Below, one piece after another: positions 3,163 to 38,286 of a DNA stretch of 52,745 nucleotides. Where the stretch lies: positions 1-52,745 of the forward strand of contig CAJXKB010000011.1 of the NCBI GenBank assembly GCA_913055825.1. Direction: 5' to 3'. The notes under the pieces are model-generated. The model was not told the origin of the DNA and searched no databases. It saw only the letters and a program-made list of their open reading frames with translations. Position 1 is the stretch's first letter. The number at the start of each line of letters is the position of its first letter. Both the position numbers and the translations under genes were made by a program. This DNA is from an uncultured Bacteroidota bacterium (GTDB lineage Bacteria; Bacteroidota; Bacteroidia; Bacteroidales; F082).

Positions 3163-3464
3163 CACTAAAACAAAAGAAACCTTTTCAGTAAAAATCAATG
3201 CCGAAATATAATAATCAATTGTCTTTATTGGGCAGCTGTCATGCCAATACATGCCAACGGGCTGTCCGCTCATAGTCCTCGTTCCTGTGTAAATTGCAAA
3301 TTTAAAATCATCAAATTTCTGTGCGTCAGAACTTCAAGTTTGCTGATGGCTTATTTCAGATTTGCAGTCACCCGCAACACCCTTGCCATTCGCTAATGTT
3401 TCCTATCAACCCGGCACATACAAAGACTTGCACCATGTTAGATTATTACCATGCACGACATACT
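3163..3464. other. Intergenic region without a recognisable gene
   Basis: About 300 bases between the typA promoter and the Thx terminator. No convincing reading frame or known RNA was found. The segment 3237-3460 is richer in G and C than the AT-rich stretches around it and looks like decayed repeat or mobile material, but no second copy is present in this window. Confidence 0.4.
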
Positions 3465-15332: not shown

Positions 15333-16709
15333 TTAATTTTTGTTAACGAGCGGATGGTGGGCTTTAAAATATTCAATAGCATTTACAACCTTTTGATCTT
15401 TCGGGATTTGCCCATTTGAAATTGCAGCAAAAATGGCTGACAGATTTTTAAATATTACATTTTTGGGATGCAGTTCATCATACCAATAAGTCCCCGGACG
15501 CTTGTTTTTTAAAGTTTCGTAAAAATGTGTAAACCCACGTGCATCCACGTGATAAACATTGTTATATTCTTTGCCTAACTCAATTAGCATCTCATTAAAT
15601 TCAAAAATAAGTGTTTTTACAATGGATTTTTGAACGTAAGGATCGATAATTCCCTTCGCCATAAGCGGCTCCTTTAACCATTCGCCATTATCCATCAACA
15701 TCCTTAACCCAAACCGTTTATGAAAACTGGGTATGGCATAATCGTAACCCTGTGTAATTATTTTTACCGATTTGAAGCGGTTAGTGTCGACTTTTCGCAA
15801 AGATTCAAACAGAATTTTATATTCAAGTTTGGTCGTGACTGTCCAACGATAGAAATTTTTATTTAAGTATCTGCGCCCGGTAACAATTTGATTAACCAAT
15901 GATGTGTCTATCTTTTGTCGATAGTAATCCATCGAATCCCCGTAAGCTTGGTAGTCGATCGGACAATAAAATTCATTACACATGGGTACTGATTTATGCA
16001 TCATTCGCAGGATTACATAATCACGAAAATGTTGAAGAAAAGGGTCGTCTTTATCTTTAGGTGTCAGCCGTATTAGCCCCGACAACCTTGAATCACCAAC
16101 CAGATCGTTCCCTCCGCCACTTATGATGACCACATCCGGATTAATCTTAACATAATCGAATTCATATTTTAACGATGAAATCATATTGGAGACCCAATCA
16201 CCGCCATGTGCCAGACTGTAAATAGCTAAATTGGGATACTTCATTAAATAATCGGTAATATCGTTAAGAAAAACGGGATATTCGAACCAGGAATCACCTT
16301 CTATAAGTACCACCTTGTGCTGAGGATAAAGCCTGCGATCCCGGAATCCGGAGCGTATTTTCTTGTGGAATTTCTTCATCTTACCATTGTTGGCTTCCTT
16401 ATTTAATACTCCAATAAAGCCTTCTTCTGAATGTGAAAGATTTAGAAAAAAAGAACTTTTTCCAAAATAAACCGAATGGATCAGATTGTTTAATTGTAAG
16501 ATATTCACATGTTTAAGATGTTGATTTAGCCGAATCCAGTTGGGGTCGTTTCGGTTAAAAAAACTTGTGGGATGAACCCATAAAGAATCCATCAACCGGC
16601 TGACTACAATATTTCCTACAGAATCGGCCTTAGGTATTTTGGTTTGAGCAAATGAAACTGGTGTCCAGATAAGTAAATGAAATGCCAGAACAAAATAGAG
16701 TTTTTTCAT
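15333..16709 (-). CDS. Secreted SGNH/GDSL-like hydrolase
   Basis: The protein has 458 residues from the ATG at 16709. A signal peptide (about 1-21) ends Ser-Phe-Ala. The SGNH blocks appear in order: I-E-G-D-S-W-F with Ser140, a Gly in A-H-G-G-D-W near 175, G-G-G-N-D-L near 205, and D-E-L-H-P near the C-terminus with the Asp and His of the triad. Such enzymes are esterases or lipases acting on sugar acetyls or lipids. A helical N-terminal part (30-130) precedes the hydrolase core. The open frame continues 61 codons upstream into a repeat element; that part is not coding. Gene partner and substrate are unknown. Confidence 0.8.
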   Translation of the reverse strand: MKKLYFVLAFHLLIWTPVSFAQTKIPKADSVGNIVVSRLMDSLWVHPTSFFNRNDPNWIRLNQHLKHVNILQLNNLIHSVYFGKSSFFLNLSHSEEGFIGVLNKEANNGKMKKFHKKIRSGFRDRRLYPQHKVVLIEGDSWFEYPVFLNDITDYLMKYPNLAIYSLAHGGDWVSNMISSLKYEFDYVKINPDVVIISGGGNDLVGDSRLSGLIRLTPKDKDDPFLQHFRDYVILRMMHKSVPMCNEFYCPIDYQAYGDSMDYYRQKIDTSLVNQIVTGRRYLNKNFYRWTVTTKLEYKILFESLRKVDTNRFKSVKIITQGYDYAIPSFHKRFGLRMLMDNGEWLKEPLMAKGIIDPYVQKSIVKTLIFEFNEMLIELGKEYNNVYHVDARGFTHFYETLKNKRPGTYWYDELHPKNVIFKNLSAIFAAISNGQIPKDQKVVNAIEYFKAHHPLVNKN

Positions 16710-16763: not shown

Positions 16764-16928
16764 TAAGGCATTATTACTAAATAAGTTGGACAAAGCAGGC
16801 GATATTATTTTGTGCGGTAACAAGGCAAAAAATGTAGACATAGCAGTAGCTATGGCGAGGCTTTTTAACGCAGTTAGCGTGCAAAAGAACAAGCCAGAAT
16901 GGTCAAGTTATTTCGTAACAATGCCTAA
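16764..16928. mobile_element. 165-bp foldback MITE-like element
   Basis: The ends are 22-base imperfect inverted repeats (16767-16788 and 16904-16925, 19 of 22 match), both starting G-G-C-A-T-T and flanked by TAA on each side as a possible target duplication. The inside is also an imperfect palindrome around a CATAGC-AGTA-GCTATG hairpin (near 16840-16855), so a strand could fold on itself over its whole length. There is no coding capacity. A further copy of one end lies at 33897-33920. It is probably a non-autonomous element moved by a transposase encoded elsewhere. The other bases of 16710-17032 hold nothing that I recognise. Confidence 0.75.
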
Positions 16929-17032: not shown

Positions 17033-17839
17033 ATGAAAGGTAAAGTTGTAATAATCACGGGAGCAAGTTCCGGAATTGGTAAAGCGTTGGCTTATGAGTT
17101 TGCCGGCCACGGTGCCAAAGTGGTACTGGGTGCCCGGAATCAGACGCAGTTAAAGGAAATATCCGAAGACATTAAACAAAAGGGGGGCGAAGCTGCCTAT
17201 CTTACCACTGATGTAAGCAACGAAAATGATTGTAAAAATTTAATTCTTACTGCCAAGCAAAAATTTGGAAAGATTGACGTACTGATAAACAATGCGGGTA
17301 TCTCAATGCGGGCCCTTTTTCAGGATGCAGATTTAAGCGTTATCAAAAGACTGATGGATGTAAACTTTTGGGGAACAGTTTATTGTACAAAAAAAGCTTT
17401 ACCCTATTTATTGGAAAGCAAGGGAAGTGTAGTTGCCGTATCATCGGTGGCCGGTATCAAAGGGCTTCCCGGAAGAACGGGATATTCGGCTTCCAAATTT
17501 GCCATTCATGGATTTATGGAAAGCCTTCGTATCGAGAACAGGAAAACAGGTCTTCATGTTTTGATGGCTTACCCGGGATTTACAGCTTCCAATATCCGTA
17601 ACACTGCATTGGTTGCCGATGGTTCACAGCAGGGAAAATCGCCTTTGGAAGAAGGGAAAATCATGTCGGCGGAAGATGTCGCTGCCCATATTTACAAAGC
17701 TGTTATAAAGCGTAAAACTTCAATGGTGTTAACGGGAGAGGGAAAGCTGACCGTATTTTTGAGTAAATTCTTTACTAAATGGCTGGATAAACTTGTATAT
17801 AATCACATGGCTAAAGAACCCGGTTCACCTTTTAAATAG
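17033..17839 (+). CDS. Short-chain dehydrogenase/reductase (SDR family)
   Basis: The protein has 268 residues. T-G-A-S-S-G-I-G near 9-16 binds NAD(P). N-N-A-G is near 87-90. The active site has the Ser of S-S-V-A-G near 139 and Y-S-A-S-K near 152-156. The Arg at the end of the second strand (G-A-R-N near 34-37) suggests NADP preference. The C-terminal 60 residues are basic and amphipathic, as in SDRs that attach to membranes or lipid substrates. The substrate is not predictable. It is followed after 29 bases by the two-repeat protein and may share its transcript. Confidence 0.9.
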   Translation: MKGKVVIITGASSGIGKALAYEFAGHGAKVVLGARNQTQLKEISEDIKQKGGEAAYLTTDVSNENDCKNLILTAKQKFGKIDVLINNAGISMRALFQDADLSVIKRLMDVNFWGTVYCTKKALPYLLESKGSVVAVSSVAGIKGLPGRTGYSASKFAIHGFMESLRIENRKTGLHVLMAYPGFTASNIRNTALVADGSQQGKSPLEEGKIMSAEDVAAHIYKAVIKRKTSMVLTGEGKLTVFLSKFFTKWLDKLVYNHMAKEPGSPFK

Positions 17840-33896: not shown

Positions 33897-33920
33897 TAAG
33901 GCATTGTTACGAAATAAGTT
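33897..33920. repeat. Solitary end of the MITE-like element
   Basis: TAA followed by GGCATTGTTACGAAATAAG matches the terminal repeats of the element at 16764-16928 almost perfectly (it equals the right end except at one base). A weaker inverse segment TTTCTGTAACA lies at 33950-33960. This is probably a truncated or internally deleted copy, upstream of the ferritin-VIT1 gene. Confidence 0.6.
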
Positions 33921-34039
33921 TATCCTGCCGGTTTGTAAAAATATAATACTTTCTGTAACACTTTCCGCCTTTACAACACAAGAATTATCACAAAGGTTTT
34001 TTTTGTTATGACAAAGTACACGCTTTTCAACCATCAAGT

Positions 34040-38198: not shown

Positions 38199-38286
38199 AT
38201 TAAGAATTTGTAACAATAACGCATCCGGTGGTAATGAGAAATCAGATGCCGGGCTAATTCTTATTTTTCCCTGCTTAAAACTGTTC

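Follow-up and report, generated by a model that had tools for sequence, protein, structure and literature searches.

The window analysed here, a stretch of 52,745 nucleotides from an uncultured member of the Bacteroidales, contains a 159-bp imperfect palindrome set between direct TAA repeats, which together occupy 165 bases with exact coordinates 16764-16928. The element itself extends from 16767 to 16925 and is described on the + strand, the orientation used in the alignment discussed below (A4). The TAA triplets lie at 16764-16766 on the left and at 16926-16928 on the right. Directly after the first of these comes the left terminal inverted repeat, GGCATTATTACTAAATAAGTT (16767-16787, + strand), and the right terminal inverted repeat, which reads GGCATTGTTACGAAATAACTT on the - strand, lies at 16905-16925, the right boundary on the + strand being AAGTTATTTCGTAACAATGCC-TAA. 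With the triplets excluded, the two 21-base ends differ at three positions. The palindrome runs from end to end, and an apical inverted repeat, CATAGC/GCTATG (16839-16854, + strand), forms the tip of the hairpin in both DNA and RNA folds. When the 165 bases are folded as DNA, the free energy is -30.5 kcal/mol, with a z-score of -5.45 in comparison with shuffles, and the RNA folds of the two strands have z-scores of -5.17 and -5.15. The initial annotation, which had described a 165-bp MITE-like foldback with inverted ends and flanking TAA triplets, is therefore borne out with respect to the architecture of the element. A covariance model that includes the window copy in its training set scores this copy at 169.3 bits on the + strand and 70.4 bits on the - strand.

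The element lies between two genes whose transcription points away from it. The left neighbour (15333-16709, - strand) encodes a GDSL-lipase-like protein for which both Pfam scores are below the cut-off, and the right neighbour (17033-17839, + strand) encodes a short-chain dehydrogenase. One + frame is open across the window copy for 54 codons, and a minus frame is continuous with the reading frame of the left neighbour up to 16892. However, an equally long frame is present in 152 of 1000 shuffles of the element, no codon-position bias was seen in the diversity of the element, and the + frame that is open in the window copy is broken in other copies. For these reasons a coding function is unlikely, and the element is treated as non-coding, as had been claimed from the outset, even though its + frame is open. 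Elsewhere in the window there are a tmRNA (157-556) with a tRNA beside it (580-651), as well as a match to the Rfam group-II-D1D4-3 intron on the - strand at 3265-3377 (35.1 bits, E 0.0016).

A lone end next to TAA had also been reported at position 33897, and it proved to be a truncated copy with an exact 21-base end. This remnant, which represents one end of the 165-bp element, occupies 33897-33933 on the - strand, starts with TAA and has no second end. The perfect 21-base end, TAAGGCATTGTTACGAAATAA, lies at 33897-33917, and similarity to the element runs for about 37-38 bases (82%) and then ceases, which is why we regard it as a truncated remnant; the corresponding profile match covers model positions 129-165 (E 0.0027). 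A degenerate 21-base end pattern occurs with 0-1 mismatches at only three places in the window, namely the two ends of the element and the end at 33897, whereas shuffled windows (n=5) contain on average 0.2 matches at up to three mismatches.

The genome from which the window derives (G000) is a 3.1-Mb draft of 145 contigs and shares its genus with G001, G002, G006 and G011. Three full-length copies are present in it, namely the window copy on contig C11, a copy on C64 (94%) and a copy on C50 (86%), together with an internally deleted copy on C37 and truncated copies on C20, on C39, at 33897 of the window and at other places. Matches with E < 1e-10 were found at six places in this genome, and the 24-base end occurs in it seven times at up to three mismatches, compared with none for the reversed control. 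The notion of a repeat family that is common in this genome thus holds, and copies are present in its relatives as well. In a search of 100 relatives, own genome counted, in which the best candidates of each genome (up to eight) were scored, nine genomes matched the 165-bp element; four of the 11 other genomes of the genus (G001, G002, G006 and G011) were among them, and the presence of the element across the genus is patchy. With the best candidates, up to 25 per genome, scored, 13 places were obtained in G006 and 15 in G002, several of them partial or cut by contig ends, and the 15 places in G002 include one element of a sister family (C258). Sister families of 166 and 205 bp, which share these ends, are present in G006, G002 and G000; an additional inner hairpin of about 39 bp distinguishes the 205-bp form.

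Other repeats are found in the company of this family. G006 and G002 contain a second family of palindromic repeats, about 163 bp long and with ends GAAGCTGTTTAAAG, which was seen at L155 (G006 C28) and at L165, L166 and L167 (G002 C208, C147 and C11). The MITE-like element occupies the same TTA/TAA of this repeat in G006 C23 and in G002 C208 and C11, and a truncated end is present in C147; its location at one site of the repeat in both species would reflect either a hot spot or an old composite. A third repeat (..AGCGCATCAAAATAGGAATTAGCC) has 11 further places in G000 among the matches listed, adjoins the copy on C37 (left flank of L004), and is represented in the window by fragments at 30-55 and 38246-38267.

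How the element inserts can be read from its flanks. At 56 distinct near-full sites, each covering at least 120 model positions, identical direct triplets are present at 37 (TTA/TTA at 24 and TAA/TAA at 13), unequal triplets at eight (TCA/TTA at four, TAA/TTA at two, TGA/TTA and TTA/TAA at one each), and the triplets are unreadable at 11. As the repeats are direct and not inverted, the triplets are target duplications and not part of the ends. The joined flanks of 13 sites were furthermore compared with 12 genomes of the genus, and exact empty sites containing a single TTA were recovered for two loci: the copy on G006 C23, which has empty counterparts on G006 C28, G006 C8 and G002 C243, and the copy on G002 C49, which has empty counterparts on G002 C213 and C71. 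These empty copies come from cases in which the element sits within another repeat. At G006 C10, TCA and TTA flank the element, and TCA is found at the empty site. Three sites in G006, on C10, C8 and C19 (L046, L055 and L057), have TCA as the left and TTA as the right triplet, C19 being at an unrelated site. For the window copy no informative empty site was obtained, the left gene not being syntenic in the 10 relatives that have the right-hand gene, and at G000 C50, where the end of the adjoining gene is retained in G011 and G007, divergence of the intergenic sequence prevents an exact joint from being drawn. The number of copies, the identical duplications at 37 of 56 sites and the exact joints at two loci, all of them features that the initial annotation had proposed to look for, support its view of a non-autonomous element. 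It had also suggested regulatory effects on neighbouring genes; among the 50 of the 56 sites with enough flank, the flanking genes (++ at 10, -- at 9, divergent at 14, convergent at 9 and incomplete at 8) show no clear bias in orientation.

The ends of the element are found well beyond the genus. Of 393 genomes of the order, 18 contain TWAGGSMTTGTTACGAAATAA with no more than one mismatch. These represent 16 genera and 16 families and have a total of 115 sites, which are counted ends and not proven elements, compared with two sites for the reversed control. From the relatives, 17 two-ended elements with lengths of 62 to 286 bp were read, of which 11 are 163-167 bp long and alignable with the window element; G513a, G433, G238, G069, G396 and G426s, which differ in length and match mainly in their ends, were excluded from A4. 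The other loci of the order that were searched for element pairs had no clear second end. Short forms of 61-75 bp that retain both ends exist, and the interior of the element may therefore be dispensable for movement. On contig C90 of G238 (L264 1501-2013), five short MITE-like units follow one another head to tail at 102-bp spacing as a tandem array, each bounded by ends of this kind, the right ends having 3-4 mismatches. A related foldback in G027 (L045 1465-1628) has a similar core, with 84.9 bits in the covariance model, and termini without TAAGG.

Identity to the window copy is 92-93% for the copy in G255 and 89-90% for that in G358, each from another family, and is about the same for the C64 copy of its own genome (93-94%). 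Similarly, a copy in G002 is 93% identical to that in G454, which belongs to another family, and the identity between the elements of G000 and G006 is 90% on A4 and 90-93% by BLAST. In contrast, the conserved genes by the window copy have a DNA identity of 67-73% in 10 of the 11 other genomes of the genus, with 73% in G006. In the element tree, the copies from G002 and G011 cluster with that of G454 of another family (0.993), and those from G000 and G006 cluster with those of G255 and G358 of another family (0.83), the tighter grouping of the window copy with G255 and G358 having a value of 0.71. These groupings cross families although G000, G002, G006 and G011 are members of one genus. Because the identity of the elements across families (up to 92-93%) exceeds that of genes within the genus (67-73%), horizontal spread between species and families of the order is likely and represents the simplest reading of these comparisons, although part of the signal could be mimicked by strong constraint, by differential loss of old subfamilies or by contamination of the drafts.

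A duplication of TWA together with ends that start with GG indicates the IS5/PIF-Harbinger group of transposable elements. Given the TTA or TAA duplication and the GG at the start of its ends, the enzyme that moves the present element is probably an IS5/PIF-Harbinger-like transposase. We tested 45 transposase loci, 42 of which are of the PF01609 family (7, 10 and 25 loci from 1, 4 and 13 genomes, respectively) and three of the PF13586 family (12 genomes), one place being in both. At none of these 45 loci, which come from fragmented drafts, did any end pair have fewer mismatches than the best pair among 15 shuffles; the lone low value, at L294 (6 mismatches, with a shuffle minimum of 5), combines a real MITE end with a weak partner. 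G002 and G006, with many copies each, have one PF01609 match apiece. Wide-spaced end pairs in G000, G002, G006 and relatives from the order were considered as autonomous partners and rejected, as one end always has 3-4 mismatches. The 1665-bp pair on G000 C87 encloses regulator and sensor genes, and no transposase is among the seven proteins of the wide intervals at L187, L266, L267, L272 and L275 (TauE, rhodanese, enoyl-CoA hydratase, DUF6150, alginate export, sodium symporter and ParE-like). A full-length element with the same ends and a transposase, as envisaged in the initial annotation, was thus not found at the 45 loci, which cover two transposase families, or between those wide-spaced ends whose genes were examined; as repeats are frequently missing from draft assemblies, an autonomous partner may nevertheless exist. 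A plasmid collection had no match to the 165- or 166-type element, a phage collection had none to the 165-type element, and viral contigs contained no exact match to one end pattern or one core pattern.

The nearly palindromic interior that had been pointed out in the window copy is part of a hairpin that is conserved as a whole. Alignment A4 consists of 24 full-length copies from eight families in 168 columns with few gaps, the homologues being 163-167 bp long with the duplications included, and its consensus structure has 45 pairs. Paired cells amount to 93.8% in A4 and to 80.7% in shuffles, and double changes are present in 26 of the 45 pairs, 20 of which lie in the inner helices. None of 500 shuffles equalled the alignment in any of five measures, and sliding one arm by 1-3 columns reduced pairing to 40-47%. 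As related sequences can beat shuffles without any structure and an alignment-derived structure favours itself, the changes were also mapped on the tree, where about 36 pair-keeping double changes were counted, compared with 0-3 for slid pairs. They are spread over about 17 branches, where most of them affect one pair on its own and none more than two adjacent pairs. Certain mirrored mismatches are kept as well, namely A.G at 44/127 in 21 of the 24 copies, and G.A at 62/108 and C.A at 63/107 in 18 copies each. When 52 distinct copies were considered, the terminal branches had 71 pair-breaking single changes and 12 Watson-Crick double changes, whereas the internal branches had 27 and 19, respectively (Fisher p 0.001, based on averaged and rounded parsimony counts). 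We read this difference as suggesting that pairing is kept in lineages that are still moving and lost in copies that have settled.

On the basis of these results, the element is very probably a MITE of a new family, which appears to spread horizontally, maintains its whole hairpin and would be moved by a DDE-type transposase from elsewhere. According to the mechanism that we propose, this transposase, most likely of the IS5 or PIF-Harbinger kind, would recognise the ends of about 20 bases and insert the element at TWA, and the family would be transferred between species, and also across family boundaries, within the order. Lineages that still move would keep the whole 159-bp imperfect hairpin paired, and not the ends alone, while copies would decay once inserted. 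Pairing of the whole hairpin in moving lineages suggests that the folded form may take part in the propagation of the element. It is conceivable, although on balance doubtful, that the folded full-length imperfect hairpin, as single-stranded DNA or as RNA, is itself the working part for movement or recognition, that selection on movement keeps the approximately 45 pairs and some mismatches fixed in the interior order-wide, and that the family spreads horizontally without a recognisable autonomous parent.

The main rival to selection on pairing is template switching. The element would then still be a MITE, but its hairpin would persist by quasipalindrome correction, in which one arm is copied onto the other. 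According to the passages of PMC8794818 that deal with this process, template switching creates and maintains hairpins and yields compensatory changes, and a point change followed by correction would resemble the mostly isolated double changes seen here. However, copying of one arm onto the other should erase the three mirrored mismatches, which are kept in 18-21 of the 24 copies, and the double changes, distributed over about 17 branches, comprise single pairs or at most two neighbouring pairs and no long tracts. Moreover, a mutational process should also act on immobile copies, whereas the changes on terminal branches are mostly breaks. We therefore consider template switching an unlikely explanation, albeit one that deserves serious weight.

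It is still less probable that one strand is transcribed as a functional 165-nt hairpin, of use to the element or to the host, and that selection acts on this RNA. As RNA, the + strand gives the better fold in 23 of the 24 copies, with a mean difference of 9.8 kcal/mol, and its z-score is the lower of the two in 18 copies. Returns to Watson-Crick pairs are also more frequent from G.U (28) than from A.C (10; p 0.008, rounded counts), but G.U pairs are themselves commoner, and new G.U and new A.C pairs occur in a ratio of 57 to 43 (p 0.19). Although suggestive, these fold and G.U comparisons are only that, and other observations speak against an RNA. Co-directional flanking genes have no orientation bias (++ 10, -- 9), the Bacteroidetes-type -7 promoter motif is not present in or near the window copy, and Rfam covariance models gave no match at E values up to 1 in four element-bearing loci, nor any at the gathering score for the window copy. 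Single-strand transposition of a REPIN-like element by a RAYT (Y1) transposase is highly improbable, as the hairpin shape and intergenic location would fit but the 3-bp target duplication with exact empty sites is at odds with the lack of duplication expected of REPIN/RAYT systems, and Y1 enzymes are not known to make such a duplication.

Several known families invite comparison with this element. Tourist-like MITEs and the PIF-Harbinger and IS5 (IS1031 group) elements have 3-bp TWA or TNA duplications and ends that start with GG. The present family resembles them in both respects, but the matching transposase was not found here. As a general kind, MITEs with long hairpins are known, as outlined in parts of PMC2229807 and of the review PMC10969869. 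The sections of PMC2229807 on the Correia or NEMIS elements of Neisseria (about 107 and 155 bp) describe a similar size, a long hairpin, terminal inverted repeats, a target duplication and two size classes that result from an internal insert, comparable to the 166- and 205-bp forms found here. However, those elements have TA ends and 24-bp repeats, whereas the present family has a TWA duplication and ends GG..TTGTTACGAAATAA and belongs to another phylum. For the enterobacterial ERIC and YPAL elements, which measure about 127 and 168 bp, respectively, the same source describes long stem-loops like those seen here, with no transposase shown, and, for YPAL, both filled and empty sites, again as in our case; unlike the window family, YPAL has duplications of 3-26 bp and internal repeats, the comparison with ERIC and YPAL being by description and not by sequence (PMC2229807).

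Within the Bacteroidota, the BrickBuilt, MITE239, MITE464 and MITE700 elements of P. gingivalis are intergenic and show nesting of one MITE in another, and their ends are common to IS5-family elements, as stated in the relevant passages of PMC4596501. Those ends (GAGAC.. or ACGT..) and the tandem-repeat bodies set them apart, and no end among those listed there equals the present one (PMC4596501). MITECca01 of Cardinium (~240 bp, IS982-derived) is likewise a high-copy Bacteroidota MITE that is intergenic and nested in other elements; as described in parts of PMC9769881, its parent IS982 element is present, whereas no parent was found for the window family. A search by topic, not by sequence, of what is accessible of the open-licence PMC literature on MITEs and Bacteroidota gave no earlier description of this family.

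This family is distinguished by a hairpin that covaries along its whole length in eight families, together with its likely spread across family boundaries. The usual explanation of MITEs relies on their ends and leaves the interior free, whereas here the pairing of the interior can be traced over eight families, and pairs are broken more often by recent changes than by those on internal branches. The function of MITE hairpins thereby becomes directly testable. If the spread is indeed horizontal, the exchange of DNA between families of one order could be traced naturally with this family, as its elements are far more alike across families (up to 92-93% identity) than the genes beside it are within the genus (67-73%).
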